From Flavobacterium noncentrifugens (GTDB lineage Bacteria; Bacteroidota; Bacteroidia; Flavobacteriales; Flavobacteriaceae): a DNA stretch of 64,000 bases. This document shows, in pieces, positions 1,020-22,450 of this stretch (the stretch's first letter is position 1; each line of letters starts with the position of its first letter). The notes beneath the pieces are model-generated. The model saw only the letters and a list, made by a program, of their open reading frames with translations. It searched no databases and was not told the origin of the DNA. The stretch spans positions 372,001 to 436,000 of the forward strand of contig NZ_FNEZ01000001.1 of assembly GCF_900100375.1 (NCBI RefSeq), read 5' to 3'. Position numbers and translations under genes: made by a program.

Positions 1020-1051
1020 AAATCCGCAGCTTCAACTGCGGATTTTTTTTA
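1020..1051. terminator. Bidirectional terminator
   Basis: A perfect 10-bp stem (AAATCCGCAG / CTGCGGATTT) with a six-base loop CTTCAA. It has a T-run on the + side and the complementary A-run on the other, between two convergent genes. Confidence 0.85.
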
Positions 1052-3682
1052 TAATACAAACCTGTAAGTGGCTTTGATCAGGAAAATATTTTCAGGTTTC
1101 TGATCTAAAATCTGCGAATCGAGTCCTCGGAATAAATTGGCCTGCGGATTTGCCGAGCCATCGATGCCCTGCGACCAGACTAAAAATATTTCCGAACCCG
1201 GAATATATTCCCATCTTAAAACCAGGTTTGATCGGTATTGCACGAAAGAAAAATCAGGGTTTTGGATGTTGTAATCTGCCGATCCATACGCATTTTCATC
1301 AACATTATAAACATCAGCCGCCGCATTGAAAGCAATCTGGTTGGGATTGAAAACATTGATTCTGTCTTTATAGGACTTAGCTGTAGGGTTTACAATTTTA
1401 TTGAATGCATTGTAGCGTCCACGTGAAATAAACGGTTGTCCGTAATATTGAATCGTAAGGTTCGGATTGATGTTATAATCCAGCCGAACCGACATGCTCA
1501 ACGTGCGCTGGTCGAGATTTGCCGTAATGTACCTCGGATCATTTCCGAATCTGGTTTGCGTAACATATTGCGTTTTGCTTCCGTTTCTGACGTAGTTAGG
1601 GCTTAATGAAAATGTAAATGCATTGATGGGCTGATACGTAATTCCGGCATCAACCTCAGTGTAAAATCCTGATTTTTCCCTTTCCTGCGACACATACATT
1701 CCGGCATAATACCTGAATTTCTTGCGCGAATCGGAATTGAAATTCGCATACCCGAAAACATCTTCAGAAAACCGGTATCTTGGCCCGCCCTGCAGCATCG
1801 AATTGGTGAAACGCCTGGATTTATACTGCAATTGAAAGTTCGTGTTCCAGTTATTCTTGTAATTCCAATTGCTCGTCATCGTGTACTGCATCCGATTGAA
1901 ATTGCCATCAAAATCATGAAAAGACAACTGCTCCAATCTTGTAAAAATTTTCCGGAATACTTTGAAAGGTTTTAGTGTTTGATAAGTCACCACGCCGTAT
2001 TGCCGGATTTCATCCGCCTGTCTCAAAAACCCTACATCGTTAAGTTCCAGTTCCGGAGAGCGCCAAAGCAGCAAACCGTAATAACGCCAGTTTCCGACGC
2101 TGCCTTTTCCTGCTTCGATTTTCCCGCCGGTTCCAGTAAGAGAAGTCTCGTTTTCATCGACAAAAACATGTTTGGCATCGACGCGTTGGAACAAATGCGT
2201 GAGTTTGCGCTGTGTATTTGTAATGGCTTCCTTGCTTCCACCAACGTGGCTTGCGACGACGCTTCCTGTCATGTAATATTTCCTGTCATTCCAGTTGTGC
2301 TTGAAATCGATGCCAGCAGAATAGGCTTCTTTGTGCAGGAAATCGAGTTCGTTGCCATGCAGATTCCGGTTTGTTGCCGTAAAAATCCCACCAATATAAC
2401 TGTTGCGGTTGTTGAAATCCTTCTGCACACGCGACACGAGATAATTCGTTGTTGGCTCGACCATTTCCTTGCGGCGGCTTCCGTTGTTGTCGATTTCGGC
2501 GAAAGCCTCGTTGGTCACACTTTCGAGAATCCCAAGCGACCAGCCGTTTTTGGTTTTTCCGCTGAATTTTGCCGCGCCGAGAATCGTTGTATTGTCCGGG
2601 ACATCAGCAAATTCGACATTTTCCGTTGCCGGATATGCCTGTGGGCTGCGTCCGATGCGTCGCGAATAGAATAAATTATCCTGTCCATCGGCAAATCGGT
2701 AATCAAAAATATTTTTATTTTCGACAAAAAACGGGCGTTTTTCTTCGAAGAAAATCTGAAAACCATCGAGTGCAATGGCTGCCGGATCGGCTTCTACCTG
2801 CCCGAAATCAGGATTAATGGTTAAGTCTAAAGTCAAGTCGTTTGTAATGCCGACTTTAGCGTCGAGTCCGCCGTTGATTTTAAAATCCTGTCCGTCGCGG
2901 AATGGATTTCCAGGTTCTTTTGGATACGTTTTCAGCTGCGTCACTACGAAAGGCTGGATTTCGAGTTGCTTTTGGGGTTCGAGATCGATGAGTCCGCGGA
3001 GTTCACCAAATTCACTAACCCAGCCCGGCGCATCTTGTGGCACGCGCTGCCAAACCGAACGTTCTTCGGCACGAAAATACCTGCGCGTAGATTGCAGTCC
3101 CCAAATCTGCTCTTTACTGTTGCCGAATTTGAGTTGGCTGAACGGAATTTTGACTTCGGCAGTCCAGCCTTGCTCGTCAATATTGGTTTTCATGTACCAG
3201 ATCGGATTCCAGCTGCTGTCCCAATTGTTTCCATTATCGGAAATAAATTCGTCGCCTTTGACACCTGAAGCCGAAACCGTAAATGAAAATCCGGTGCGCT
3301 TGTCGTTGTAGCTGTCAATATTGAATTCTACCCAATCGCCTTCAAAACCATCGCGGCGCGACAATCTTTTTACGATGCCTTTCGGGTCTTTATCGTAGCA
3401 TCTGAAAGCAAAATAGAGAAATTTTTTATCGTAAATGATCTTGAATTTGGTTTGCTCTGAAGGCGGCGTATTTTCATCGGGCTGGTTTTCGATGTAATCG
3501 CCGGTCCAATCTACAATGTCCCAGCTTTTTTCGTTGATCAATCCGTCAATAACCGGAGATTCTATATCGCCGAGTGCTTTGGTTGTATATACTTTTTTTT
3601 CTATAACGGCTTTATCCTGAGCAATGCCGCATTGGCTTCCAAGCAATAACAAAAAAATACAGCCGGCCGTGAAGAATTTCAT
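1049..3682 (-). CDS. CBM9-like / DUF5916 outer-membrane protein
   Basis: 877 residues starting at the ATG at 3682, with a Sec signal peptide ending near GIAQD. Residues of about 30-230 form a carbohydrate-binding family 9-like sandwich: 'SPVIDGLINEKSWD', then 'FKIIYDKKFLYFAFRCYDKDP' and 'DWVEFNIDSYNDKRTGFSFT'. From about residue 240 to the end comes the DUF5916 region, which starts with FVVTQLKTYP and 'DFGQVEADPAAIAL', includes 'FFEEKRPFFVENKNIFDY', and ends in alternating strands finishing KATYRFVL, as in an outer-membrane beta-barrel. Proteins of this type are common in Bacteroidota and may bind or pass glycans, but the substrate is unknown. No SusC/SusD pair or glycosidase is adjacent. Confidence 0.85.
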   Translation of the reverse strand: MKFFTAGCIFLLLLGSQCGIAQDKAVIEKKVYTTKALGDIESPVIDGLINEKSWDIVDWTGDYIENQPDENTPPSEQTKFKIIYDKKFLYFAFRCYDKDPKGIVKRLSRRDGFEGDWVEFNIDSYNDKRTGFSFTVSASGVKGDEFISDNGNNWDSSWNPIWYMKTNIDEQGWTAEVKIPFSQLKFGNSKEQIWGLQSTRRYFRAEERSVWQRVPQDAPGWVSEFGELRGLIDLEPQKQLEIQPFVVTQLKTYPKEPGNPFRDGQDFKINGGLDAKVGITNDLTLDLTINPDFGQVEADPAAIALDGFQIFFEEKRPFFVENKNIFDYRFADGQDNLFYSRRIGRSPQAYPATENVEFADVPDNTTILGAAKFSGKTKNGWSLGILESVTNEAFAEIDNNGSRRKEMVEPTTNYLVSRVQKDFNNRNSYIGGIFTATNRNLHGNELDFLHKEAYSAGIDFKHNWNDRKYYMTGSVVASHVGGSKEAITNTQRKLTHLFQRVDAKHVFVDENETSLTGTGGKIEAGKGSVGNWRYYGLLLWRSPELELNDVGFLRQADEIRQYGVVTYQTLKPFKVFRKIFTRLEQLSFHDFDGNFNRMQYTMTSNWNYKNNWNTNFQLQYKSRRFTNSMLQGGPRYRFSEDVFGYANFNSDSRKKFRYYAGMYVSQEREKSGFYTEVDAGITYQPINAFTFSLSPNYVRNGSKTQYVTQTRFGNDPRYITANLDQRTLSMSVRLDYNINPNLTIQYYGQPFISRGRYNAFNKIVNPTAKSYKDRINVFNPNQIAFNAAADVYNVDENAYGSADYNIQNPDFSFVQYRSNLVLRWEYIPGSEIFLVWSQGIDGSANPQANLFRGLDSQILDQKPENIFLIKATYRFVL

Positions 3683-3935: not shown

Positions 3936-4838
3936 TTGGAAACTTTAAAAACAATACTTTACTTTTCTGTCTTCAATTATCCGTTGAAAATAGAGGAGAT
4001 CTGCCATTTTTCAGCGGAGAATGACCGGGAAAAAGTAATGAAAGAACTCGAGTTGCTTTTGGAACAGAAAGTCATCATCCAATCGGATGAATTTTACCTG
4101 ATCAAAGCCAATCTCGATCAGATCGAAAAAAGAAAAAAAGGAAATAAAATGGCTGTCAGCGCTTTGGTCAAAGCACAGGAAAGGGCACGGTTTATTTCCA
4201 AATTCCCATTTGTAGAAGCCGTTGGTGTCTCAGGTTCGTTATCCAAAGGCTATTATGACGACAACAGCGATATTGATTTTTTTGTCATTACGAAGCCAGA
4301 AAAAGTCTGGATCTGCAGGACTTTTTTAATGCTTTACAAGAAAATTTTCCTGATGAATTCGCGAAAATATTTCTGCATCAATTATTTTATGTCATCGTGC
4401 CAACTCGAACTGGAAGAGAAAAACCGGTTTACGGCGACTGAAATTAAAACGCTGATCCCATTTCAGGGCAAGCAGGTTTTTGAAGAATTTTACCACAAAA
4501 ACGAATGGGTTCACAATATTTTAGGCGAATTCAAACCCGATTTTAATCAGATACAAAACATCAGCAAACCAAAGCCTGTCAAAGCGCTCGAATATTTATT
4601 GGGTTCGCCGCCGGGAAACCTGATTGACGCTTCTTTCAGAAAAATCACCGTATCTTTCTGGAAAATGAAATTCAGCCAAATGCGGACAGAAGATTTTAAA
4701 GTGGCGCTAAAATCGACCAAAAACATTTCAAAGCATCATCCGTTGAATTTCCAGAAAAAAGTCATCGGATCGCTGAATGAAAAATACGACGAGATCAGGC
4801 GAAACCACAACATCGAATTAACTCCGGAATATGTCTAA
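3936..4838 (+). CDS. Nucleotidyltransferase-fold protein, first gene of the radical SAM locus
   Basis: 300 residues with a TTG start at 3936. The nearby ATG at 3929 is in another frame and stops quickly. Residues of about 1-60 look like a winged-helix-like start (LYFSVFNYPLKIEEICHF). Residues 96-118 hold the minimal nucleotidyltransferase motif: GS at 100-101 (SGSLSKGYYDDNSDIDFF) and the two metal-binding aspartates at 112 and 114. The remainder is helical and basic, with no second recognised domain. The reaction is probably nucleotidyl transfer to a small molecule or polymer, but the substrate cannot be deduced. The gene overlaps the downstream B12-radical SAM gene by 8 bases, so the two are probably translationally coupled. 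Confidence 0.75.
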   Translation: METLKTILYFSVFNYPLKIEEICHFSAENDREKVMKELELLLEQKVIIQSDEFYLIKANLDQIEKRKKGNKMAVSALVKAQERARFISKFPFVEAVGVSGSLSKGYYDDNSDIDFFVITKPEKVWICRTFLMLYKKIFLMNSRKYFCINYFMSSCQLELEEKNRFTATEIKTLIPFQGKQVFEEFYHKNEWVHNILGEFKPDFNQIQNISKPKPVKALEYLLGSPPGNLIDASFRKITVSFWKMKFSQMRTEDFKVALKSTKNISKHHPLNFQKKVIGSLNEKYDEIRRNHNIELTPEYV

Positions 4839-6288
4839 AATCCTTTTTTCACATTCTTATTATTACAAACTCGACCCGAAGCAATGGAAAAACAAAACGC
4901 CATTTCCGCCTTTGGGTACTTTATATGCGGCTTCATTACTACGCAAAAACGGACATGAAGCACGCCTTTTCGATACGAATTTAACCGACAGTCCGGCTGC
5001 TATTTCAGACATGATCGAACTGCACCAGCCCGAATTTCTCGTCATTTACGACGACGGATTTAATTACCTAACCAAAATGTGCCTGACGAACATGCGCGAA
5101 GCGTGTTTTGAAATGATTGCGATCGGAAAAAAAGCCGGTTGCAAGATCATCATCTGCAGTTCAGATTCTACAGATCATGCAGCAGAATATCTGGAAAAAG
5201 GTGCCGATTTCATCATTCTAGGCGAAGGTGAAATGACGTTGCTGGAATTGGTTGAAACCCTTCAGGAAGATGAAAATACGGCAGCAATTTCGGGAATTGC
5301 ATACCTGAAAAATGATCGGCTTCAATCAAACCCGAAACGTCCCGTACTCCAAAATCTTGACGAATTGCCGATGCCTGCCTGGGATTTGGTCAACATCAAT
5401 AAATATAAAAACATCTGGCTTGAAAGCGGCCAGCCATTCACTTTAAATATCGCTACAACGCGCGGCTGCCCTTACAAATGCAACTGGTGCGCGAAACCTA
5501 TTTACGGCAACCGCTACAATTCGCATTCGCCGGAATATATCGCAAAACACATTGCTTTTTTAAAATCTTCGTATGGCGCAGAACGCTTTTGGATGTGCGA
5601 TGATATTTTTGGGCTGAAGCCAAATTGGGTTGGGGAATTCAACGACCAACTCAAAAAACGCGACCTCAACATTAAATATTACATACAAAGCCGCGCAGAT
5701 TTGCTTCTTAAAGAAGACATGATCAATTTGCTCGCAGATTCCGGACTGGAAGAAGTGTGGATTGGTGCCGAAAGCGCTTCGCAGAAAATCCTCGATGCAA
5801 TGGACAAAGGCACCAAAGTAGAGCAAATTTATGAAGCGACGCGGTTGCTGAAAAGCCAAAACATTCGCGTGGCATTCTTTCTTCAATTCGGGTATTTGAA
5901 TGAAAATCAGGACGATATTTTAAAAACGATCGGAATGGTGAAGGAACTGATGCCCGACAATATCGGGATTTCTATTTCGTATCCTTTGCCGGGAACGAAA
6001 TTTTATGAAACCGTAAAATCTGAGCTGAAATTAAAAGCAAACTGGAAAGATTCCGACGATCTCGACATGATGTTCAACGGCACTTTTAAAACCAAATATT
6101 ACAGGAAACTGCAGCGTTTCGTGCATAAAGAATACCGCAAAAGCCAGGGTTTTTTGTACTTGAAGCAAATACTCAAAAATCCGTTTGAATTGTCATTTGG
6201 AAAAATCATATCTGTAGTAAAACTCGGTTATTACATTCCGAGCGCTTTCGTTGATACCTTTCATTTAAAAAGATTGCAAAATGGCTAA
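4831..6288 (+). CDS. B12-binding-domain radical SAM protein (first of three)
   Basis: 485 residues. Residues of about 1-150 are a cobalamin-binding Rossmann-like domain of the kind seen in class B radical SAM proteins (PPLGTLYAASLLRKNGHEA near the start, FIILGEGEMTLLELVE near 130-150). It lacks a clear DxHxxG base-off motif. The radical SAM core follows, with its cluster-binding cysteines at C213, C217 and C220 in RGCPYKCNWC. Later core motifs include WIGAESASQKILDAM and FFLQFGYLNENQDDI. Enzymes of this architecture often methylate unactivated carbons or rearrange rings; the substrate here is unknown. It overlaps its neighbours by 8 bases on each side, which places it firmly in the seven-gene operon 3936-12635. 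Confidence 0.9.
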   Translation: MSKILFSHSYYYKLDPKQWKNKTPFPPLGTLYAASLLRKNGHEARLFDTNLTDSPAAISDMIELHQPEFLVIYDDGFNYLTKMCLTNMREACFEMIAIGKKAGCKIIICSSDSTDHAAEYLEKGADFIILGEGEMTLLELVETLQEDENTAAISGIAYLKNDRLQSNPKRPVLQNLDELPMPAWDLVNINKYKNIWLESGQPFTLNIATTRGCPYKCNWCAKPIYGNRYNSHSPEYIAKHIAFLKSSYGAERFWMCDDIFGLKPNWVGEFNDQLKKRDLNIKYYIQSRADLLLKEDMINLLADSGLEEVWIGAESASQKILDAMDKGTKVEQIYEATRLLKSQNIRVAFFLQFGYLNENQDDILKTIGMVKELMPDNIGISISYPLPGTKFYETVKSELKLKANWKDSDDLDMMFNGTFKTKYYRKLQRFVHKEYRKSQGFLYLKQILKNPFELSFGKIISVVKLGYYIPSAFVDTFHLKRLQNG

Positions 6289-7063
6289 TTCCTTCGATTC
6301 GGCAGCGGCAGTTTACGACGAAACCTTTACCCATTCGGTTATTGGAAAACTGCAACGCGGAATTGTACAGCGTCATTTTCAGAAGATACTCGACATCCAA
6401 AAACCGAAAACCATTCTTGAAATCAATTGTGGAACTGGCGAAGATGCGATTTGGCTGGCGAAGCAAAATTTTAAAGTCACGGCGACCGATCTTTCTGAAA
6501 AAATGATCGCGGTTGCGAAAACTAAGGAAAATCAGCACAAAATTATTTTCAAAAAAGCCGACATCAACGAATTGCCGACTGATTTTACAGATGAAAAATT
6601 CGATTTGATCTTTTCAAATTTCGGCGGGTTGAACTGCCTTTCAGAAATCAGGCTGGAATTGTTTTTTAAAAATGCAGCTGAATTGCTTTCAGAAAACGGC
6701 CATTTGATTTTGGTCATTATGCCGAAAAACACGCTTTGGGAACAATTTTATTTTCTGGCGAAAGCCAATTTTAAAAGTGCTTTCAGAAGAAAAAAACACC
6801 CTGCAATTGCAAATATCAACGGCGAAAAAGTGCTCACCTATTATTACAATCCGATGAAAGTTAAAAACCTGGCAGATGGTTTTTTTAAACTCATAAAACT
6901 TCATCCGGTTGGTTTTTTTGTGCCACCGTCTTATCTAGAGCCTTTTTTCAGGAACAAGCACAGATTGATTTCGGCTTTAAGCCAACTGGAAAACGGCATC
7001 CAAAACCGCAAATCGCTTTCGAGATTTTCCGATCATTATTTTATAGCGCTTCAGAAATTATGA
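6281..7063 (+). CDS. Class I SAM-dependent methyltransferase
   Basis: 260 residues. The SAM-binding motif I is ILEINCGTGEDAIWLA (about residues 45-60), followed by the acidic residue of motif II in VTATDLSEKMI. FDLIFSNFGGLNC is the motif IV region. This is the small UbiE/Methyltransf_11/25-type fold, acting in the cytoplasm on an unknown small-molecule or lipid substrate. It lies between two B12-radical SAM genes, overlapping the first by 8 bases and the next by 4 (ATGA). It probably modifies the same product as those enzymes; that link is inference from context. Confidence 0.85.
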   Translation: MANSFDSAAAVYDETFTHSVIGKLQRGIVQRHFQKILDIQKPKTILEINCGTGEDAIWLAKQNFKVTATDLSEKMIAVAKTKENQHKIIFKKADINELPTDFTDEKFDLIFSNFGGLNCLSEIRLELFFKNAAELLSENGHLILVIMPKNTLWEQFYFLAKANFKSAFRRKKHPAIANINGEKVLTYYYNPMKVKNLADGFFKLIKLHPVGFFVPPSYLEPFFRNKHRLISALSQLENGIQNRKSLSRFSDHYFIALQKL

Positions 7064-8442
7064 GCATTTTACTCACACACGGCTATTATTTATCTGATGA
7101 TCCGAAAGAGCAAAAGATCATGAAACCTTACCCGCCATTGGGTTTGCTGTACATTTCGGGTTATTTGTGGAGCAAAAACATTGCGAATGACGTTTTTGAC
7201 AGCACTTTTTATTCGAAAGAAGCACAATTGGCATTCATCCTTGAAAAAAAGCCTGAAGTCGTTGCCATTTATACGAACCTGATGACGAAAATTGAAGTCG
7301 TCAAACTGATTAAAATTTTAAAAACCACTGCATTCGGTTTTCCGAAAATCATTCTCGGCGGTCCGGATGTTAGTTACAATTTAGACAATTACCTCAGCAC
7401 TGGCGTCGATTTTCTGATCATTGGCGAAGGCGAAGAAACGACATTTGAACTGTATCAGGCGATCCAAAACCAAACCGCTTTTTCAGTCGTCAACGGAATT
7501 GCTTACCTCGAAAACGGAAATCTCGTAAAAACGCTTCCGCGAACGAAATTCCGGGAACTCGACGACTTGCCATTGCCGAACCGCGACGCCATTCCAAACG
7601 AAAAATACCTGCAAACATGGAAAGACAACCACGGCGAAAGCTCGATGACGATTTCGACGCAACGCGGCTGTCCTTATACCTGCAAATGGTGCAGCACTGC
7701 GGTTTATGGACAAAGTTACCGCAGGCGTCCGCCACATCTGGTTGCGCAGGAAATGAAAATGCTGAAGGACAAATACAATCCCGACGCGATCTGGTTTGTC
7801 GATGATGTGTTTACGATCAGCCACAAATGGCTTACTGCTTTTCATGAAGAAGTTGTAATGCAAAACGCACAGATCAGGTTTGAATGCATCACGCGCGCAG
7901 AGAGATTGAATGAGGAAATTTTAAAACTGCTCAAAGAAGCCGGTTGTTTCCGGATCTGGATTGGTGCAGAAAGCGGTTCGCAGAAAGTCATCGATTTAAT
8001 GGACCGCCGTGTGGATGTGAACCATGTGAAGAAAATGATCCAGGACACGAATGCGCTCGGCATTGAAACCGGAACGTTTGTAATGGTGGGTTATCCGGGC
8101 GAAGATGAAAATGACATTTCGGAAACGATTCAATATCTGAAAGAAGCCAATCCGACACATTATACGATTACGATCGCATATCCGATCAAGGGCACTTCTT
8201 TATATGATGAGATCGAAAAAGACATTTTGGTCAAGCCGGATTGGGAACAATCAACGGATCGCGAAATTGATTTCAAGCGCAATTATCCACGGAAATATTA
8301 CGATTACGCTGTTTCGAAAGTCGTGAATGAAGTCGAATTTCATCGGGAATTTTACAAATCCGACCGAAATAATTTAAAGGCTTTGAAGCTTAAAACCAAA
8401 TCGATCCTTGCAGGCACGATGATGACTTTGAATAAATCTTGA
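7060..8442 (+). CDS. B12-binding-domain radical SAM protein (second of three)
   Basis: 460 residues. The layout matches the protein at 4831-6288: an N-terminal B12-binding-like domain (PPLGLLYISGYLWSKNIA, VDFLIIGEGEETTFELYQ) and a radical SAM core with cluster cysteines C204, C208 and C211 in RGCPYTCKWC. These are followed by DAIWFVDDVFTISHKWLTAF and WIGAESGSQKVIDLMDRRVD. The two are clearly homologous but far from identical, so this is an old duplication or paralogue rather than a recent copy. It probably carries out a separate radical step in the same pathway. ATGA overlaps join it to the methyltransferase before and the glycosyltransferase after (TTG start inside the stop). Confidence 0.9.
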   Translation: MSILLTHGYYLSDDPKEQKIMKPYPPLGLLYISGYLWSKNIANDVFDSTFYSKEAQLAFILEKKPEVVAIYTNLMTKIEVVKLIKILKTTAFGFPKIILGGPDVSYNLDNYLSTGVDFLIIGEGEETTFELYQAIQNQTAFSVVNGIAYLENGNLVKTLPRTKFRELDDLPLPNRDAIPNEKYLQTWKDNHGESSMTISTQRGCPYTCKWCSTAVYGQSYRRRPPHLVAQEMKMLKDKYNPDAIWFVDDVFTISHKWLTAFHEEVVMQNAQIRFECITRAERLNEEILKLLKEAGCFRIWIGAESGSQKVIDLMDRRVDVNHVKKMIQDTNALGIETGTFVMVGYPGEDENDISETIQYLKEANPTHYTITIAYPIKGTSLYDEIEKDILVKPDWEQSTDREIDFKRNYPRKYYDYAVSKVVNEVEFHREFYKSDRNNLKALKLKTKSILAGTMMTLNKS

Positions 8443-9965
8443 AAGCCAAAAACAGATATATTCTTTTACTTACAGCACTTTATTTTGCGATAAGTTATGT
8501 TGGCATTTTACATCATGAATTGTGGCTGGATGAAGCGCACCATTGGCTTTTGGCGCGTGACAGCGGCAGTTTTTCTGAACTGGTTCAGGCCACGCGGATC
8601 GAAGGCCATCCCATTTTATGGAATGTTTTGCTGTTTGGAATTACACGGTTTACATGGAACCCATTTTGGATGCAACTCCTAAATGTACTGATTGCGACTG
8701 CTTCGGTTTCTGTATTTTTATGGAAAGCACCGGTTTCGCTACCGTTCAAAATTCTTTTTATTTTCGGGTATTTCATGATTTTCGAATACAATCTGATTAG
8801 CCGAAATTATATGTTGGGCGTTTTATTTTTGTTTTTGGCGTGTGCTGCTTTTCGGGATCGCAAACAAAATTTTGCTTTATTGTGTTTTTGGCTTGCCTTG
8901 GCGGCAAATGTACATTTGATGTTTAGTGTGATTGCCTTCGCTTTGTTGCTGGCTTTGATAGTGGAAAATTATCAGCAACAAAAGTTGTTTGACAAATCAT
9001 ATCTGGTTGGCTACATCATTTTTTCAATTGGAATTTTACTGCTTTTTGTTCAGATTTTAAGCTCGAATTCAGGCTGGTTTTTTGGTTCTATAAATCAAAA
9101 TCCGTTTTCAGAAAAAATCTCAAAAGGACTCATTTCATTCTTTAAAGGAATTGTGTTGCTGCCCGATTTTAGGACATTGCATTTTTGGAATACAAATTTA
9201 ATTGTTGTTTTAAGCCGGAAATTATCCGTTGTTTTAGGTTTGATGATTTATTTTCTTCCGTTGTTTGTTTTTCGGAAAAAGCACGCGCTTTTCTTCGTTT
9301 ACATCGCTTTAATCGGAATGCAGGTTTTCTTTTTTATCACCCAAAGAGCAGCGGCGCGTTTCCATGGGATGGCGTTTCTGATTGTCATTATTGGTTTTTG
9401 GATCGAACATTATTATGTTTCTGATCATTCGAAATTCAAGAATATTTCAATCCGTTTTGATCTTACAAAATTTAAAAAAGCCATACTTTATAGTATTCTC
9501 ATTTTACATTGCTTTTCAGGAATAATAGCTTATTACATTGATTTCACGCAGCCGTTTGCTTCTGCAAAAGAAATAGTGGATTTTGTCAGATCAAAAAAAC
9601 TGGACCAACTTCCAATTATGGCACTAACTTGTGATGGCACTGTTCCCAGCGCTTATTTTGAAAAGAAAATTTGGTTTTTATACGATCATAGTTATCAAAG
9701 CTATTGCCATTGGGATGGAAATTTTCCTTCCAATGTTTCAGCTTCAGAAATTGCAGTATTGATCGGTGATTTCATGAAAAACCACAACCGCGCAGTGTAT
9801 ATTTCTTATGACCCGATCGTTAAAAATTCGGAAACCGGCATCTGGATCCCGATTTCCAATGAGGTGAAAGTGCGATTCTTAAAAGCATTTGTAAACAACG
9901 CTGTGGTGTCCGACAAATATTATATTTTTGAAGTGTCACGAATCACTGAAACAAACCAGCGATGA
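8439..9965 (+). CDS. GT39-type integral membrane glycosyltransferase
   Basis: 508 residues with a TTG start overlapping the previous stop. After the first membrane segment comes HHELWLDEAHHWLLARDSGS, the external loop with the acidic residue that is the catalytic hallmark of the GT-C fold in ArnT/PMT/GT39 proteins, followed by EGHPILWNVLLFGITRF. About ten hydrophobic segments follow, and then a soluble C-terminal domain of about 130 residues. Such enzymes move a sugar from a polyprenyl-phosphate donor to an acceptor on the outer face of the inner membrane. The substrate is unknown. The protein is embedded in the operon (TTGA overlap upstream, ATGA overlap downstream). Confidence 0.8.
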   Translation: MKAKNRYILLLTALYFAISYVGILHHELWLDEAHHWLLARDSGSFSELVQATRIEGHPILWNVLLFGITRFTWNPFWMQLLNVLIATASVSVFLWKAPVSLPFKILFIFGYFMIFEYNLISRNYMLGVLFLFLACAAFRDRKQNFALLCFWLALAANVHLMFSVIAFALLLALIVENYQQQKLFDKSYLVGYIIFSIGILLLFVQILSSNSGWFFGSINQNPFSEKISKGLISFFKGIVLLPDFRTLHFWNTNLIVVLSRKLSVVLGLMIYFLPLFVFRKKHALFFVYIALIGMQVFFFITQRAAARFHGMAFLIVIIGFWIEHYYVSDHSKFKNISIRFDLTKFKKAILYSILILHCFSGIIAYYIDFTQPFASAKEIVDFVRSKKLDQLPIMALTCDGTVPSAYFEKKIWFLYDHSYQSYCHWDGNFPSNVSASEIAVLIGDFMKNHNRAVYISYDPIVKNSETGIWIPISNEVKVRFLKAFVNNAVVSDKYYIFEVSRITETNQR

Positions 9966-11086
9966 AAAAATTCTCCATTCTTTTCGTGTTTTTTTTGCTA
10001 TCGTGTGCGAACAATTCGGCTTCCGATTTGATGGCTGATGCCGATACTTTTGAAACGCTAAACTTAAAATGGAACAAAGCATATCCTGATGACAACATCC
10101 AGAAATCGTCAATCGGGCTTGAATGGGCGCTTTCCTATTGTGGCGCAATTTTACCGAATGCACCAGGCGGAATAAATGTTGGCACTGAAATTATCACACT
10201 TAATTTAAGTGAATTGGGTTTTACAGATGCCGCACTTGAGAAACTGTACAAACTCCACCAAAAAATAAAATCTTCACCCGAATATCAGGCAAACGGAACG
10301 ATCGATCTTGGGCGTTACGTGACTTTATTGCTCGGCGCGCCGGAACATTATTACCGGATTGTGGGCATTCCCGAAAAACTTGACGATGTGCTTTCAAATT
10401 ATAATTTGCTGCCAGAAAAAGGCTACGTCAACCATTCCGGCGTGTCGCTGGAACATCGGATCCTCCGGTTTTCGGAACAAAAAAAGCTTAACCAGGTGTT
10501 TGTTTCTTCAGAAGTCGATTCGGTTTCGGGTGCTGTTTATGAATATGAAACGATAGAAATCATCCCGAACGGACAAATCCGGTTTGGTATTTTTGATGCT
10601 GATGGCAATCGGAAAAACAATGCCGATGCATTGCATTCAAACGCCGGAAAACCTGCAAAATGCATGTGGTGCCACGAATCGATCATTCAACCTTTGTACA
10701 ATGTTCAGGGAAATTTTCCGGAATTCCTGACGTATTTGCAGTTGAAAGAAAAACTAATCAATTTCAATCAATTGCTTCAAAACCAAAAATATGCGCTCAC
10801 AACCGGAGTCGATTTTTCCCAGAACCAGCAAAATACCCTGACCGAATTGCTGTATATTTCTTTTATGGAACCATCGGCAGAACGGCTGGCTTTAGAGTGG
10901 AATTTGCCGCTTGCGAATGTTCAATCCTTGCTTTTGGGATTGCCCACGCATACATACCACGAATTTCCTTTCTTGGGGAATTTATACGACCGAAATATGA
11001 TAGAAAACCTTGCGCCGCATAAAGGTTTGTCTGTTTCTTCAAGTGTTCGCGAAGCTTCTGAAACCGAAGTCAACCACATCAATTAG
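9962..11086 (+). CDS. Lipoprotein with a single haem-c (CxxCH) motif
   Basis: 374 residues. The signal peptide ends in the lipobox LLSC, so a lipid-anchored periplasmic or outer-membrane protein is expected. The only recognisable motif is CMWCH at residues 234-238, which fits covalent attachment of one haem c. No second CxxCH and no obvious distal Met ligand are visible, so cytochrome function is unproven. The rest is not recognised. The 4-base overlaps with the GT39 gene upstream and the one-base gap to the GT87 gene downstream show that it belongs to the same operon, which is unusual for a putative cytochrome. It might instead use CxxC in a thiol reaction. Confidence 0.65.
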   Translation: MKKFSILFVFFLLSCANNSASDLMADADTFETLNLKWNKAYPDDNIQKSSIGLEWALSYCGAILPNAPGGINVGTEIITLNLSELGFTDAALEKLYKLHQKIKSSPEYQANGTIDLGRYVTLLLGAPEHYYRIVGIPEKLDDVLSNYNLLPEKGYVNHSGVSLEHRILRFSEQKKLNQVFVSSEVDSVSGAVYEYETIEIIPNGQIRFGIFDADGNRKNNADALHSNAGKPAKCMWCHESIIQPLYNVQGNFPEFLTYLQLKEKLINFNQLLQNQKYALTTGVDFSQNQQNTLTELLYISFMEPSAERLALEWNLPLANVQSLLLGLPTHTYHEFPFLGNLYDRNMIENLAPHKGLSVSSSVREASETEVNHIN

Positions 11087-11087
11087 T

Positions 11088-12635
11088 ATGAAACAAGCTG
11101 TGCAAAAATATTCTTATTGGATCCCGATTGTGCTGCATTGCGTGTTTTATATTTTCAAAGCGGCTGCCTTTCCTGCGGGTGATTTTGCGAATTATTATTT
11201 TGGAGGGAAATTTTTGGCGGATGGGCATTTTAATGCCGCTGTTTATTTTCCGTACGAATTCAACAAAGCGATCGCCGATTTGGGTTACAGCAACATTTTT
11301 GTGAGTTATGCGCCAAACACGCCGTTCCTGGCTGTTTTATTTGTGCCATTTTCGTTATTGCCATTGGCTGCAGCCAAAATTCTATTCAACTGCATTAGTG
11401 TTTTGCTTTTCCTTTTCAGCCTGAAAAAGATCGTTTTGCATTATAAAATCCCGGATTTTTATGTGCTTCTGATTCCGGTGTTGTTTTTTGTGCCTATAAA
11501 AAATGAATTGCTGTTTGGGCAGGTTTACTTTTTATTGTTCTTTTTGCTGTCCGAAAGCTGGCTGGCTTATGAGAAAAAAATGTTTTTTAAAATGTCGATT
11601 TTGCTGGCCGTTGCCATTTTACTGAAAGTTTTTCCGGCGTTGTTGGTTTTGGTTTTTGTGTTTAAGAAGCAGTTTATACCGTTGCTTTATCTGGTTTTTT
11701 GCGGTTTGTTTTTGATGGCCTTTTCGATGCTTTTTACCGGAATTAACATTTGGGAATTTTATTTTTTTTCGGTTTTACCAAAAGCTTCCAATGGCGAAAT
11801 TGCAGGCGAATATGTGGCCAATTACCAATCGGTTTTTATGTTCCTGAAGCAATTGCTGGTTTATGATAAAACCTGGAATCCGACTGGCTTTGATTTGCCG
11901 GTTTTGTTTGTCGCTTTGTTGTTGGCATTTAAAATCAAACTGGTTGCGATTGGGTTTTACATCAGCAGGAAAGCCAACAATTCGCTTTTTGTGTTGGCGT
12001 ATTGGATTGTAGCGATGGTTTTGATATCGCCTTACGGCAGCACTTACACCTTTATTTTATTGATTTTTCCCGTTTTTGCGTTGGTAAAAAGCCCGTATTC
12101 TACTGTTGTAAAAACCGCTGCTTTTTTGCTGCTGATGCTTGTAAACTTTATTCCGGTCGCGCAATTGGTCGTCCTGCCGTTTCCGGTTTCTTATTTGCGG
12201 TTGTTTGCTTTGTTGGGGTTTTTTGGGATTTTGGTTTGGATGATGATTCGATATGTGAACCTGAAAATCATTTCGGTTGTTGTCGTTGTGCCTTTTCTAT
12301 TGGTTTTGATCCTAAAGAAAAAAGAAATGGTAGTTTCAGATTGCGTGTTGAAAAATCCACCGATTTTGATTTATGATTTTAAAGTTTCGGGCAATGAGCT
12401 GACCTATTATTATTGGAATGAAAATGGGGAAAACCGAAAAACGATTGCATTTGAAGCGAAACACAACATTTCATCCAAAATAAAACACAATCAGGTTTTT
12501 TACAACGGAAAAAAAATGGCTACCGATTCAGGCCATAAATCCAAGGCTTTGGTTATCGATAAAAAAATCCTGTATTTATCAGATTTTGGCCGGGGCATTG
12601 GATTTTATAACTTGAGGATGGTTTCGGTGAAATAA
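11088..12635 (+). CDS. GT87-type (DUF2029) integral membrane glycosyltransferase
   Basis: 515 residues. The ATG at 11088 is chosen because it follows the upstream stop by one base; the longer frame to 11010 only overlaps that gene. After one membrane helix comes AAFPAGDFANYYFGGKFLAD, the aspartate-bearing loop typical of GT87/PimE-like GT-C enzymes, then ISYAP-like 'FVSYAPNTPFLAVLFVPFSLLP'. About ten more hydrophobic stretches follow, and the last ~100 residues are soluble. It probably transfers a sugar (mannose in the characterised relatives) from a polyprenyl-phosphate donor; the actual sugar is unknown. It is the last gene of the operon. Confidence 0.8.
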   Translation: MKQAVQKYSYWIPIVLHCVFYIFKAAAFPAGDFANYYFGGKFLADGHFNAAVYFPYEFNKAIADLGYSNIFVSYAPNTPFLAVLFVPFSLLPLAAAKILFNCISVLLFLFSLKKIVLHYKIPDFYVLLIPVLFFVPIKNELLFGQVYFLLFFLLSESWLAYEKKMFFKMSILLAVAILLKVFPALLVLVFVFKKQFIPLLYLVFCGLFLMAFSMLFTGINIWEFYFFSVLPKASNGEIAGEYVANYQSVFMFLKQLLVYDKTWNPTGFDLPVLFVALLLAFKIKLVAIGFYISRKANNSLFVLAYWIVAMVLISPYGSTYTFILLIFPVFALVKSPYSTVVKTAAFLLLMLVNFIPVAQLVVLPFPVSYLRLFALLGFFGILVWMMIRYVNLKIISVVVVVPFLLVLILKKKEMVVSDCVLKNPPILIYDFKVSGNELTYYYWNENGENRKTIAFEAKHNISSKIKHNQVFYNGKKMATDSGHKSKALVIDKKILYLSDFGRGIGFYNLRMVSVK

Positions 12636-12662
12636 AACCACCTTATACGCGATTATCAACAT

Positions 12663-13188
12663 CTAACTTCCTGCACTATCCACATCCAATCGGAGTTGCT
12701 CCAATTTAGATTCAAGTAATAATTTTTCGAGTCCGAGTATTTCCTGCTTGTGCACTTGTTCGGCGATGAAATCCAAAATTGGTGTTTTGAGCGACTTAGC
12801 CATTTTGATATTTAATATTTCAACTTCCGGTTTCGATCTTATTCCGGTTTCGCGACTGGTGAGAAAATCAGTAAATCGTAACAGCCCGGCCTAAACACCT
12901 TGTTTTTCATAGCGGCAGCAATTTTTTGCGCCGTAAGCATTTGCTGGAATTCGTTTTCGCGCAACTGGCGTTCGAAATGTTGCGTGGCTGCTATTTGCTT
13001 TACCGGGTAAGTTTGTTGCCTGCTGGTTCCGTTTTTTGAATACAAACAAGCATTTCGGCGAAAAGTTGTTTTGTCGATAGCGGTAAATCGCGCTTGCCAA
13101 TTTCAAATATAGACCATTGGCTGCGGGTTATACCGAGTAACGTTGCCATCTCTTCCTGGGTAATGCCAATTAAGGTTTTGATTGGGTG
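12663..13188 (-). pseudogene. Broken HTH (XRE-like) regulator gene, two frameshifts and no start codon
   Basis: Reading the minus strand, one protein is spread over three frames. The first frame (13188 to about 13018) encodes IGITQEEMATLLGITRSQWS and FEIGKRDLPLSTKQLFAEML, a clear helix-turn-helix, then stops at TAA. A second frame (about 13045 to 12839) continues with a coiled-coil-like stretch including QHFERQLRENEFQQML and TAQKIAAAMKNK. A third frame (about 12880 to 12663) carries DFLTSRETG and ends in a Leu/Glu-rich helix before TAG. No start codon exists in the first frame: TAA directly precedes His-Pro-Ile. Small HTH proteins of this shape occur in flavobacteria. The gene lies at the junction between the radical SAM operon and an AT-rich inverted block. 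Confidence 0.7.
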
Positions 13189-13263
13189 TTATTAAATAAT
13201 TATTATAGAAAATGTGTCGCTCTTAGGAAAGCGTTTTATTCGAAAAAGGGCTACAATGCTACT

Positions 13264-14373
13264 TTAAGCAAAGCAACAATCACCGTCTCCAAAATTCATC
13301 CTTGTATTATCAAAATCTGATTTATTGAATACTTTTGAGATAATAGACTGTTTTGTTTTCTTTGTTTTGTACAAAAATATACTTGACTTCTTAAAATTTG
13401 CACAAATAGCTTCTTCATAGCAAATAATTTCACGTGTATTTTGTGTAATGCTCTGGAGTTTTATAACATCTGAAATAACCTTTGTATGTCTATTTTCAAA
13501 ATAAGAAAATAGGACTTTAACAACGTAATTTCTTTTTTGAAGTACTATAAAACCAATTAACGTTCCTTTTTCTTTAATTTTAATATAGCTTATATTAAAT
13601 TCTTTGTCATACATTGAAAATTCATATTTATTTTTGTCAGTGAGTTCAATAAGTGGTGCTTCCTGAACCCAGTTGTATGCTTTAAGCCATTCAAAAAAAG
13701 CAGTTGTTTTATGAGAGATATCTTTTTTATTAAATGTATTTATAAACGTTTCTGTTTCGCTATCAATACTATTTAAATATTCGATTTTAATATTTTTTAG
13801 ACCCTTTTTTATGAATCGCCTTTGAACCGCCAATTTGAAATTAATAAAAAAATTGAAAAATGAATCCGTTATTTGAAATAGTAAATTCAGTGCTTTTGAC
13901 TTAGGAATCAGGACAGGAATCACAAATGTAAGGTTACTTCTTAGTACCGCTTTTACGCCAGTGTTATTTTTAAGTGTTGTAAAATATCCTGATTTGTCAT
14001 AAACCCTTTTAGCACTTGGAGTAAATTGAGAAATTCCAATTTGGCCTTCGTTTTCAGCATACATGGTATCAAGAATTTTTCTTCCGATCCCCGTTCCCTT
14101 TGTTTTTGGATGAACCCACCAAGTAGAAAGCCAGCCTATTTTTTTTTCTATACCATCGATGATGATTTTATCAATGAAAACACCCATATAACCTAACAAT
14201 TCATTATCGATATAAGCTAATAATAACACAATATCATCATCACTTGAATTTGGGTTTTTAGAGTGTGCCAATAAGCGATGTTTGCTAATTGCCAAAAATG
14301 GATGATTCCAAAAACCAGCATCATCAAGCAAACTTTTAATATTTCTTTTGTAAATTTTCTTTACTTCAATCAT
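13264..14373 (-). CDS. GNAT-family N-acyltransferase
   Basis: 369 residues, start ATG at 14373. The N-terminal ~130 residues form a GNAT domain, with IGWLSTWWVHPKTKGTGIGR including the acetyl-CoA pyrophosphate loop (R/Q-x-x-G-x-G/A type: KGTGIGRKIL) and a following IGISQFTPSAKRVYDKSGY helix-strand pair. The C-terminal ~200 residues are Lys/Phe-rich and look like a second, degenerate GNAT-like or FemAB-like half. It may acylate an amino sugar in a surface polysaccharide, inferred from the ATGA overlap with a polysaccharide deacetylase gene. Its base composition is visibly more AT-rich than that of the radical SAM operon, suggesting separate acquisition. Confidence 0.7.
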   Translation of the reverse strand: MIEVKKIYKRNIKSLLDDAGFWNHPFLAISKHRLLAHSKNPNSSDDDIVLLLAYIDNELLGYMGVFIDKIIIDGIEKKIGWLSTWWVHPKTKGTGIGRKILDTMYAENEGQIGISQFTPSAKRVYDKSGYFTTLKNNTGVKAVLRSNLTFVIPVLIPKSKALNLLFQITDSFFNFFINFKLAVQRRFIKKGLKNIKIEYLNSIDSETETFINTFNKKDISHKTTAFFEWLKAYNWVQEAPLIELTDKNKYEFSMYDKEFNISYIKIKEKGTLIGFIVLQKRNYVVKVLFSYFENRHTKVISDVIKLQSITQNTREIICYEEAICANFKKSSIFLYKTKKTKQSIISKVFNKSDFDNTRMNFGDGDCCFA

Positions 14374-15365
14374 TTTCTTTTAATTTGATATTTTCCTGTA
14401 ATCTGATTGAAGCATTTATAGAGATTTTCAGTAACAATGTGCTTTTGAATTTGTTTGGTTGGATTCTCAAATGAAACACGTTGGATAATTCGATTATCAA
14501 TATCCTTTTTTAAACCTGAATTCCCGAACAGTAAGATATTTTGATCATATTGGAAGAGTTCATTTAATAATTTTCTCGAAATATTTTTATCCGAAAACGG
14601 AAAGGCAAACAACGAATAAGATATTCCAAAATTAAGTTTTAGCCATTCGATAGATCCTATTATTTCTGTTTTTTGTTCTTCAACACTTAATTTGTTTAGA
14701 GGCGGATGTGTCATAGTATGCCCGCCAAAAAAGAAGCCATCATTCATCATTTCCTGAATTTGCACCTTTGACACATAGGGCTTTTGTTCTTTTAAATAGG
14801 CTTCAATGTCAAAATTCAATATATGAAAAATGTCATTTATTTTATTGCGTTCTGAGTATGGAATATTTTTGAATTTTGATATAAAGTCTCCGGTAGTCTC
14901 ATAATTAATGTAAAATATTTTGCTTATTTTATCAAGCAAATTTTTATCAAAATTACGCTGTTTCAAGTGACTTATTATAATGCTAATGTAATGTTTGTAT
15001 AAACCAATGTTGTTATCTACATAAACCGGATTTATAAAAAAGATCGCACTTAAACCTTTTTCTTTTAAAATAGGATAAACAACACTATATATTTCTTCTA
15101 AACCGTCATCAAAACTAATCAAAAAAGTATTTTTCTGGGATTTGTGCTGAATCAAATCATCAGGATTTATCGGAGTATAATTCTTTAATAAGACTTCTAA
15201 ATCATTTTTGAACTGAATTGTATTTTTATAGGGATATAAATTTTCAATATGCGCAACCTTATTATCTCTTACAATATGATAGTATGGAAAAAGAAATTGG
15301 TTTTTAAATAAAGGAAGTAGCCTTTTGTTAGATATATGATACAAAGTGTTTTTGATGATTCCCAT
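14370..15365 (-). CDS. NodB-type polysaccharide deacetylase
   Basis: 331 residues, start ATG at 15365. The NodB homology motif 1 is present as FLISFDDGLEEI (the first catalytic/metal Asp pair) and motif 2 as FFFGGHTMTHPPLNKLS (the H-x3-H pair). A later segment, YSLFAFPFSDKN, replaces the usual RxPY/R motif 3. No signal peptide is obvious, so the site of action is uncertain. Metal-dependent N-deacetylation of an acetylated amino sugar is the family reaction. It is coupled to the downstream GNAT gene by a 4-base overlap; a deacetylase followed by an acyltransferase suggests replacement of one acyl group by another on a sugar. The gene is AT-rich like its neighbour. Confidence 0.8.
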   Translation of the reverse strand: MGIIKNTLYHISNKRLLPLFKNQFLFPYYHIVRDNKVAHIENLYPYKNTIQFKNDLEVLLKNYTPINPDDLIQHKSQKNTFLISFDDGLEEIYSVVYPILKEKGLSAIFFINPVYVDNNIGLYKHYISIIISHLKQRNFDKNLLDKISKIFYINYETTGDFISKFKNIPYSERNKINDIFHILNFDIEAYLKEQKPYVSKVQIQEMMNDGFFFGGHTMTHPPLNKLSVEEQKTEIIGSIEWLKLNFGISYSLFAFPFSDKNISRKLLNELFQYDQNILLFGNSGLKKDIDNRIIQRVSFENPTKQIQKHIVTENLYKCFNQITGKYQIKRK

Positions 15366-15465
15366 AACTGTACATTAAACTCAATTTGGTTGAGAGTTTT
15401 GTTTGATTGTAAAAATAACCTTTTTGGTAAATTTAAAACCAAAAAATCCTTACATTAATAATGGC

Positions 15466-16962
15466 CTATTTATAAAATTTATATACCTCGTGAACGTAAA
15501 ACTCTTTTTTGACAGAAGAAATACCTTTATCCAGTTGTAAGTGTTTTATATTTCCTGAAAATTCCCCACCATTTGATAACAAGTAAATTTGATTGTTCTG
15601 CCTTAATTCTGAATTGATATAATTTTGGATTTGTTTGTTATCGGGCCGCAATACTACGAGTTCGAGTTGGTGCTTTTTATCAAACCGGTCAAAATAATAT
15701 TGGTAAAATGTTTTTTTTCGAATGGCCAAGTTCAAATATCCCGGATCAATCTGAAGGTATTCCAGATGCGTTTTCTCCCACGGTTCGCCAATGACAATTA
15801 CTTTTGAATGCTGTGAACCATTTGATCTTACTACATATTCTACGGCTTGTCGCCATTCTTCTCTTTTCGATTTGTAATGTGTAGTGCCTTCGGAAACTAC
15901 AATAATTATTGCCGCAACGATTAAAATATTTTTTGCGCGTTTTGACAAATCGACAAAAGAAAGCAAAACTGCAATCGCCAGTAAAATAAATGGAACCAAT
16001 ATGATGTAATGCCTGTAATAATAAAAATAGGGAATGATTGGCGACCACGCGATAATCAATATGAAAAACAAAGCCAGCAGAAGAATGATGCTGTAAGCTG
16101 ATCTGGTTTTTAAAATCTGAGACCATGAAAAATACACCAGCAAGGGCAAAGCGGCCAAAACTGCAATTGATGCATACTTGCCAATGGTAGAATAGCCAAA
16201 AAACAGCATCGAAATAATTTCTTTTACAATCGTAAAATCCTGGTCGATTAGAAATGACTTGTCGATTTTTAAAATGATCCAAAAATATGGCAGCCACAAC
16301 AATCCGGCGGCAAAAGAAATAAAAACAGCCACAATGAGTTTTTTCAGAATCGAAATCTGCTTGTAATGGCAAACCATCAAAATACCAAACAACAACGCAC
16401 TGACCAGTATTCCGGTATAATGCGTATAAGACGATAAAATGGAAAACACGGTAAAGTACCACAATTTTCTTCGAAAGTTTTTTTCTTCAGGCTGCAATAA
16501 ATCAATAAAACACAGCAATTGCAAAACGGCAAACAGCAACAGCAACCCATAAGCCCTGGCTTCCTGTGCGAAAAACAAAAAACTGTAACTGCAGCCTACG
16601 AGCAATAAAAGTGACTTCCATTCGCCATGATGAAATCTTTTCCTGATGCCGTTAATGAAAAAAAACGAGGCGAGAAGCACAAATATTACAGATGGAAAAC
16701 GTGCCCAGAATTCAGTTGCCGGGAAAATTTTCAGCCAAAACCGCAGGAAAAAGTAATACAGTGGCGGATTCGAGTCATACAAAACCCAGTTTTGAAGAAA
16801 TTTATGATAATTAGGTTCTAAAGCGGCACACACAGAGTACAGTTCATCCAAGGAAAAACTGCGCGATTCCAAATTAAAAAATTTAGCAAAAACTACAATT
16901 ATAATAAAAACAACTGTCGCTATTTTATTTAATTTATAAAAGTTATTGAAGTTTTTCCTCAT
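15466..16962 (-). CDS. GT39-type membrane glycosyltransferase
   Basis: 498 residues from the ATG at 16962; a TTG at 16989 would add nine residues. After the first membrane helix comes NLESRSFSLDELYSVCAALE, with the GT-C acidic loop, and then DSNPPLYYFFLRFWLKIFPA, the 'nPPLyy' signature of GT39/ArnT-like proteins. About ten membrane segments and a ~110-residue soluble C-terminal part follow. The expected reaction is transfer from a polyprenyl-phosphate-linked sugar outside the inner membrane. It lies on the opposite strand to the radical SAM modules, next to the deacetylase and acyltransferase, and is divergent from the flippase at 17066. Confidence 0.85.
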   Translation of the reverse strand: MRKNFNNFYKLNKIATVVFIIIVVFAKFFNLESRSFSLDELYSVCAALEPNYHKFLQNWVLYDSNPPLYYFFLRFWLKIFPATEFWARFPSVIFVLLASFFFINGIRKRFHHGEWKSLLLLVGCSYSFLFFAQEARAYGLLLLFAVLQLLCFIDLLQPEEKNFRRKLWYFTVFSILSSYTHYTGILVSALLFGILMVCHYKQISILKKLIVAVFISFAAGLLWLPYFWIILKIDKSFLIDQDFTIVKEIISMLFFGYSTIGKYASIAVLAALPLLVYFSWSQILKTRSAYSIILLLALFFILIIAWSPIIPYFYYYRHYIILVPFILLAIAVLLSFVDLSKRAKNILIVAAIIIVVSEGTTHYKSKREEWRQAVEYVVRSNGSQHSKVIVIGEPWEKTHLEYLQIDPGYLNLAIRKKTFYQYYFDRFDKKHQLELVVLRPDNKQIQNYINSELRQNNQIYLLSNGGEFSGNIKHLQLDKGISSVKKEFYVHEVYKFYK

Positions 16963-17065
16963 TGGATTTATTTTTTCAAAAATATGCAAATATTAATTAC
17001 TGAAACATTTAGATTTCAAGCAACCTTTCGCCTAAAAATTAATCTACCCATAAAAACAAAAGCAA

Positions 17066-19754: not shown

Positions 19755-19758
19755 TGAT

Positions 19759-22426: not shown

Positions 22427-22450
22427 TTATAACCATAAAAAAGCATCATC

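Follow-up and report, generated by a model that had tools for sequence, protein, structure and literature searches.

Which genes of a locus rich in cobalamin (B12)-type radical S-adenosylmethionine (SAM) enzymes belong together in Flavobacterium noncentrifugens, and what might they make? The window, i.e. the whole stretch of 64,000 nucleotides of contig NZ_FNEZ01000001.1 analysed here, carries seven closely packed genes at 3936-12635, which a first-pass annotation had read as a single operon joining B12-type radical SAM chemistry to membrane glycosyltransferases. All seven open reading frames (ORFs) of that annotation are present on the plus strand, and their junctions are as it had described them, with overlaps of 8, 8, 4, 4 and 4 bases followed by a gap of one base (this gap, before gene 7, assumes an ATG start at 11088; a mechanical ORF list has a TTG start at 11010). 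The unit, as judged from gene content, is nevertheless 3936-20421, with the seven genes as its left half, because a third B12-type radical SAM enzyme (rSAM3, from 18234) and a second methyltransferase (MT2, from 19759) recur with the nucleotidyltransferase (NT, gene 1), rSAM1 (gene 2), the methyltransferase MT (gene 3), rSAM2 (gene 4) and the predicted lipoprotein (gene 6). We favour, with moderate confidence, the interpretation that this region is a mosaic island, in which a core of six genes (NT, rSAM1, MT, rSAM2, rSAM3 and MT2) likely builds one unusual, radical-made unit of a lipid-linked surface glycan, and exchangeable genes likely extend, flip and decorate it.

Co-occurrence of the genes in Bacteroidota

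A scan of public genomes with gene 6 yielded 126 relatives, and the best 80 loci of these, spanning Flavobacteriales to Saprospiraceae, Crocinitomix, Chryseolinea and Chitinophaga, were kept. Comparison of 15 window proteins with these 80 loci identified NT, rSAM1, MT and rSAM2, often a GT87 protein and a Wzx-like flippase, and then rSAM3 and MT2 as the neighbours recurring around gene 6. The first-pass annotation had proposed a check on whether the gene order is conserved in Bacteroidota: the core genes do co-occur, in an order that is reshuffled in distant relatives. The 80 loci had been selected for gene 6; unselected samples of 199 Flavobacterium genomes (including the window's own) and 395 Bacteroidota genomes were hence drawn, and 108 loci were compared overall. 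Environmental species with the island include F. soli DSM 19725 (L015) and F. terrisoli PT-3 (L011).

NT was found in 27 of the 199 Flavobacterium genomes, rSAM3 in 22 and the lipoprotein in 13, and all 22 rSAM3-bearing and all 13 lipoprotein-bearing genomes fall within the 27 that bear NT. In the Bacteroidota sample, NT was present in 29 genomes and rSAM3 in 17, all 17 within the 29 (the rSAM3 count excludes an 18th match, in G589, with 237 bits, judged to be a distant paralogue). Homologues scattered singly among genomes, which the first-pass annotation had named as evidence that would speak against a shared pathway, were not what we found, rSAM3 being accompanied by NT in all genomes of both samples. 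This co-occurrence in unselected samples, together with the parallel divergence described below, argues for the shared pathway. The exact set of seven genes did not hold as the conserved unit: the lipoprotein is missing from 10 of the 22 rSAM3-bearing Flavobacterium genomes, and two constant partners, rSAM3 and MT2, are encoded beyond 3936-12635. In one genome (G622), the cluster (L101, L150) is split over two contigs inside NT and the neighbours differ; two versions may be mixed there, or the genome may be misassembled.

A constant core and an exchangeable middle

Twenty-one loci were picked by hand for the six core genes, which are thus present in 21/21 by choice (two of these loci, L011 and L099, are from one genome). 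Median pairwise identity was 62% for NT, 75% for rSAM1, 61% for MT, 79% for rSAM2, 87% for rSAM3 and 60% for MT2. The Wzx-like flippase was present in 20 of the 21 loci, with a median identity of 26%, and the lipoprotein, GT87 protein and gene-5 type were present in 17, 16 and eight of them, respectively. For 35 loci with nine genes, the rank correlation of pairwise distances was 0.79-0.90 between core genes and 0.35-0.52 between Wzx and core genes, with intermediate values for the lipoprotein (0.77-0.80) and GT87 (0.67-0.78); these correlations are uncontrolled for species relatedness, and the Wzx distances are near saturation. Of 24 picked loci, 23 had a higher G+C content (GC) in the core than in the middle; the values in the window were 41.1% for the core and 35.0% for the middle, with 27.6-31.7% for Wzx, the GNAT-family acetyltransferase and the deacetylase, although the lower GC of the middle may be partly due to membrane-protein composition.

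In eight of the 10 lipoprotein-free Flavobacterium genomes, for which the loci were read around rSAM3 (L090-L097), genes 5-7 are replaced by others: another GT39-like protein, GT4, a PglK-like ABC flippase or Wzx, an arylsulfotransferase, a SPASM radical SAM protein and an FkbM methyltransferase were found between rSAM2 and rSAM3-MT2. Across the compared loci, NT, rSAM1, MT, rSAM2, rSAM3 and MT2 are repeatedly found together and have diverged in step with one another, and between rSAM2 and rSAM3 different flippase and glycosyltransferase genes take each other's place.

Flippases and other products of the middle

Flippases were counted in 73 distinct loci with rSAM3, MT and either rSAM1 or rSAM2: 55 contained a Wzx-like protein and nine a PglK-like protein, none contained both and nine contained neither. 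Since either a Wzx-like or a PglK-like protein is found, never both, they appear to be two alternative flippases with one role, and of all the signs this alternation speaks most strongly for a saccharide intermediate linked to a lipid. Three of 22 Wzx relatives matched PF01943 (best E 1.5e-16), and the best NCBIfam model for the one PglK-like protein scanned was PglK, with 247.5 bits (cut-off 1000).

The surface-glycan link made in the first-pass annotation is further supported by the families in the middle and flanks of related loci, which, in a scan of representative neighbours, included GT2, GT4, GT9, GT87, Bac_transf, NKWYS, sulfotransferases, an acetyltransferase and a polysaccharide deacetylase. 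The GT2 proteins found in 35 of 108 loci come closest to the models for AglJ, PpgS and dolichyl-phosphate hexose transferase (all below cut-offs); such a polyprenyl-phosphate-sugar-synthase-like protein would feed GT87-type enzymes, and is missing from the window's own locus. The GT87 label of gene 7 is secure (PF09594, 86.2 bits, cut-off 25). The GT39 label given to gene 5 has no profile support, as none of 17 members had a Pfam GT39/PMT match at E≤0.1; nine of the 17 relatives matched EpsG weakly (best E 7.3e-05), and the relatives share an invariant H-E-x-W-x-D-E stretch near the N-terminus, which we take to resemble that of a GT-C enzyme. Gene 5 is probably a GT-C-type glycosyltransferase or polymerase.

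Gene 6, annotated at first as a lipoprotein with a haem motif, has 616 relatives, the named nearest ones being from Flavobacterium. The CxxCH motif is indeed present in all 82 relatives of at least 300 amino acids (aa), and the protein belongs to no known family in Pfam and NCBIfam scans, with no cytochrome family among 23 members. Its predicted structure (predicted local distance difference test score 75.7, moderate) had no fold match at E≤0.001, and a sequence search of the PDB gave matches at chance level. The lipobox cysteine is absent by eye from five of 22 full-length gene-6 proteins (alignment A1), and a loose lipobox pattern was found in 40 of 84 gene-6 ORFs, the starts of which are uncertain; gene 6 may not encode a lipoprotein in all species, with CxxCH remaining invariant.

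B12-type radical SAM enzymes

The CxxxCxxC motif is intact in all relatives of at least 400 aa (76/76 for rSAM1, 71/71 for rSAM2 and 83/83 for rSAM3). With a Pfam cut-off of 32.1 bits for the B12-binding domain, rSAM1 scored just below (29.8; Radical_SAM 67.7 bits), rSAM2 above (34.8; Radical_SAM 89.5 bits) and rSAM3 at this cut-off (32.1, and 31.5 in a second scan; Radical_SAM 60.2 bits). The two B12-binding radical SAM proteins of the first-pass annotation, genes 2 and 4, therefore have the motif ascribed to them, and only gene 4 has a B12 domain over the cut-off. The rSAM1 profile aligned with OxsB (5ul2, residues 27-373, E 3.4e-18), and rSAM2 matched OxsB, CysS and TokK. None of the three enzymes reached the cut-off of a named NCBIfam equivalog among the models shown, the best model in each case being BchE (154.5, 156.9 and 120.1 bits for rSAM1, rSAM2 and rSAM3, respectively; cut-off 481). 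The genome encodes a B12-dependent methionine synthase (MetH) domain (420 bits) and has six B12-binding-domain matches, three of them in the island (genes 2, 4 and rSAM3), with only gene 4 over the cut-off. The three enzymes are predicted to use cobalamin. Thirteen loci from other families yielded no rSAM2. Of 108 loci, 31 (L016, L093, L094, L097, L111 and others) encode a SPASM-type radical SAM protein, which provides many versions of the island with a further radical enzyme.

The core might instead make a modified lipid, for example by alkylation or cyclisation of a polyprenyl or another isoprenoid carrier, with the variable genes only glycosylating it. The three radical SAM enzymes scored 50-140 bits against HpnJ, HpnR and rSAM_ladder, all far under the cut-offs, and NT-rSAM1 occurs in five loci without recognised glycosyltransferases. 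However, BchE outscored these lipid models for all three enzymes, so the scores pick no substrate, the solved structures nearest to NT work on sugars, and there was no terpenoid gene among the neighbour families scanned (representatives only). We consider such a product unlikely.

A secreted natural product, either a ribosomally synthesized and post-translationally modified peptide or another small molecule, from a cluster that happens to include glycosyltransferases, seems less probable still. Natural-product clusters often contain B12-type radical SAM enzymes and methyltransferases, and ApyD and rSAM_ocin were among the matched models, but the exporters are Wzx- or PglK-like and are not found together, the variable content is of the surface-glycan type, and no non-ribosomal peptide synthetase or polyketide synthase family was present among the representative neighbours scanned (peptides of <80 aa were not searched for).

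Nucleotidyltransferase and methyltransferases

The first-pass labels for genes 1 and 3 were borne out. NT matched NTP_transf_2, of the pol-beta superfamily, with 27.4 bits (cut-off 21), its catalytic aspartates D112 and D114 are invariant across 25 alignment rows, and a strict GSxSK...DxD pattern is present in 67 of 78 sequences. The nearest solved structures, KNT/ANT, act on aminoglycoside sugars, in a VIA-align comparison that barely covers the C-terminal helical part of NT; by sequence, NT matched nothing in the PDB significantly, and Foldseek gave no hit at E≤0.001. MT matched Methyltransf_25 with 68 bits and was recognised in 83 of 108 loci. For MT2, 20 of 20 members matched the PrmC and HemK2 models, the window's own MT2 being below their cut-offs, and the NPP[YFW] motif is present in 72/72.

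MT2 was found in 58 of the 73 loci defined above and an aminofutalosine-deaminase-like amidohydrolase in eight, with both in none and neither in seven. MT2 is a relative of PrmC, N6AMT1 and METTL5, and the amidohydrolase stands where MT2 is missing. A speculative and rather improbable reading is that NT-rSAM1-MT and rSAM3 make a nucleotide-capped carrier for surface glycans, of an apparently undescribed class, in which adenosine monophosphate would be placed on the glycan precursor by NT, the carbon skeleton of this precursor rebuilt by the radical enzymes, and the exocyclic amine of the base N-methylated by MT2 or removed by the amidohydrolase.

In L116, the MT homologue (7750-9453) has a fused C-terminal extension that matches GT29 weakly (sialyltransferase; 20.5 bits, below the cut-off of 23). 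L116 (13781-15880) and L117 (8113-11753), from two different Bacteroidota families, contain genes that, on inspection by eye, resemble those for cytidine deaminase and thymidine kinase, a possible nucleoside link; they lie near a SPASM-type radical SAM protein and rSAM3 (L116) or a distant paralogue of rSAM3 (L117).

Chromosomal site and neighbouring genes

Of 13 island-free Flavobacterium genomes, 10 have polA separated by 0-4 ORFs (at least 120 aa) from lacI, which itself adjoins rplM-rpsB-tsf, and in eight of these 10 there is no ORF between polA and lacI. In the other three, polA lies outside the fetched stretch (two genomes) or lacI is elsewhere (one genome). The order in the window's genome is polA, two ORFs, DUF5916, island, lacI and rplM. 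The proximity of polA and lacI in island-free genomes identifies the position of the island as a fixed, often empty site between polA and lacI-rplM.

Such a site could be an insertion hot spot at which unrelated genes have gathered, with no common pathway. The site does vary otherwise, in the presence or absence of two ferritin-like genes, and the middle is highly variable, but this explanation is opposed by the co-occurrence in the sampled genomes, by the recurrence of the core in other Bacteroidota families with a different order and different neighbours, and by the parallel divergence of the core genes; we consider it highly improbable. The ferritin-like genes (21662-23278, between lacI and rplM) form a second small variable spot among Flavobacterium.

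The features of the island and its borders are listed in Table 1. The three minus-strand genes sit in the variable middle; no close relatives of the window's GNAT protein and deacetylase were found in the other 107 loci, and weak relatives of the deacetylase (27-29% identity) were found in a few. The 628 bases between the GT87 gene and this insert (12636-13263), without a listed ORF of at least 80 aa, may be a degraded remnant of gene exchange. Several other loci, L011, L016, L030 and L039 among them, have relatives of DUF5916 flanking the island on one side or the other, and these may be partners rather than bystanders. There was no Rfam match at the gathering score, B12 riboswitches included, in positions 1-30000 of the window. 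Sigma-70-like sites (46, shuffled mean 53.5) and terminator-like sites (15, shuffled mean 18.3) were both below the shuffled means, and the Bacteroidota promoter pattern gave nine sites against 5.5 expected, a number reached in 10 of 100 shuffles. A defence system was considered and rejected, as the PADLOC matches, for 10 proteins, were all of a generic kind (methyltransferase, radical SAM and nucleotidyltransferase).

Table 1. Genes of the island and its immediate borders in the window (positions in the window).
Feature	Position	Strand	Assignment	Place or remark
DUF5916 protein	1049-3682	-	DUF5916, 243.6 bits	left neighbour of island
Gene 1 (NT)	3936-4838	+	winged-helix and aminoglycoside-nucleotidyltransferase-like domain	core
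Gene 2 (rSAM1)	4831-6288	+	B12-type radical SAM enzyme	core
Gene 3 (MT)	6281-7063	+	class I SAM methyltransferase, CpaM/UbiE-like	core
Gene 4 (rSAM2)	7060-8442	+	B12-binding radical SAM enzyme	core in Flavobacterium loci
Gene 5	8439-9965	+	multi-pass membrane protein, probably GT-C-type glycosyltransferase or polymerase	exchangeable middle
Gene 6	9962-11086	+	predicted lipoprotein, one CxxCH motif	exchangeable middle
Gene 7	11088-12635	+	GT87-family membrane glycosyltransferase	exchangeable middle
GNAT protein	13264-14373	-	GNAT-family acetyltransferase	insert in middle, GC 28.9%
Deacetylase	14370-15365	-	polysaccharide deacetylase family protein, PF01522 67.3 bits	insert in middle, GC 27.6%
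PMT_2-like protein	15466-16989	-	membrane protein, 24.9 bits, just under cut-off of 26.1	insert
Wzx	17066-18244	+	Wzx-like flippase	exchangeable, GC 31.7%
rSAM3	18234-19754	+	third B12-type radical SAM enzyme	most conserved core gene
MT2	19759-20421	+	NPPY-type N-methyltransferase, PrmC/HemK2-like	core
LacI	20416-21438	-	LacI-family regulator (Pfam)	right island boundary, rplM block next

Proposed pathway

In the pathway that we propose, the steps of which we infer from the predicted functions of the enzymes, NT would transfer a nucleoside monophosphate onto a hydroxyl group of a sugar-like precursor, by analogy with the action of KNT/ANT on aminoglycosides. The B12-type radical SAM enzymes would methylate, deoxygenate or rearrange unactivated carbons of this precursor, and MT and MT2 would cap it, MT2 probably on a nitrogen. 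NT-rSAM1, usually with MT, is the smallest recurring unit and, for this reason, probably makes the first intermediate. The flippase would move the polyprenyl-linked product across the inner membrane, and GT87 and the GT-C-like enzyme would extend it in the periplasm with sugars taken from polyprenyl-phosphate donors; the CxxCH lipoprotein would be active in this compartment as well.

Several observations weigh against a lipid-linked glycan unit built by the six-gene core, in addition to the limits on the distance correlations and GC values given above. Five of the 27 NT-bearing Flavobacterium genomes show no rSAM3. In one of them (G292), the contig stops inside the cluster, and three (G272, G316 and G198) are in pieces or incomplete. 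The fifth (G266), however, a finished genome of one contig, has NT-rSAM1-MT-rSAM2 and a PglK-like flippase; NT-rSAM1-MT-rSAM2 is also found without rSAM3 in G425, a member of the window's genus from the phylum sample (40 contigs). The best PDB match of rSAM3 is AprD4, in an alignment confined to the radical SAM core, and AprD4 is not known to use B12; rSAM3 is also the enzyme with a B12 domain at or just under the Pfam cut-off. The window's Wzx scored only 16.8 bits against PF01943 (cut-off 28.2), the 73 loci include the nine with no recognised flippase, and the flippase is more than 3 kb outside the core in eight of the 64 flippase-bearing loci. An initiating transferase of the Bac_transf type was identified in just 12 of 108 loci, and not in that of the window. 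Finally, the five loci mentioned above (L136, L139, L141, L142 and L143) have NT-rSAM1 without any scanned glycosyltransferase family in the stretch read, and the product therefore need not be a glycan everywhere.

If the proposed glycan pathway is correct, environmental Bacteroidota have in common a glycan or glycolipid unit, so far undescribed, that B12 chemistry helps to build and that sits among strain-specific sugars. To our knowledge, surface-glycan loci keep nucleotide-sugar and assembly genes constant; the constant part here is a set of radical enzymes from families capable of altering unreactive carbon. The conserved core, swappable middle and empty site would allow clean genetic tests, and NT-rSAM1-MT provides a three-enzyme starting point for biochemistry.

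Comparison with known systems

NT differs from KNT/ANT(4') by its N-terminal winged-helix domain and its biosynthetic context. rSAM1-3 resemble BchE, OxsB, CysS, TokK and AprD4 in having a probable B12-binding-like N-terminal region and a CxxxCxxC core, with significant sequence matches, but, unlike those enzymes, up to three of them share a single locus of the glycan type. In the fosfomycin pathway, a cytidylyltransferase step precedes the B12-type radical SAM methylase Fom3. A nucleotidylated substrate for a B12-type radical SAM enzyme would be a logic common to both, with different types of nucleotidyltransferase domain.

Among the top matches in open-access full-text literature, no title concerned such a locus, which is weak evidence of absence. 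The island is built like known mosaic glycan loci, and its constant B12-radical core is, as far as that literature shows, undescribed. Like Wzx/Wzy- or PglK-type polysaccharide loci (O-antigen, capsule or protein-glycan), the island has constant ends, a variable glycosyltransferase centre of lower GC, in most loci one Wzx- or PglK-like flippase, tailoring enzymes and a fixed chromosomal site. It differs from them in its sparse initiating transferases and in its constant part, which consists not of nucleotide-sugar and assembly genes but of NT, three B12-type radical SAM enzymes and two methyltransferases.

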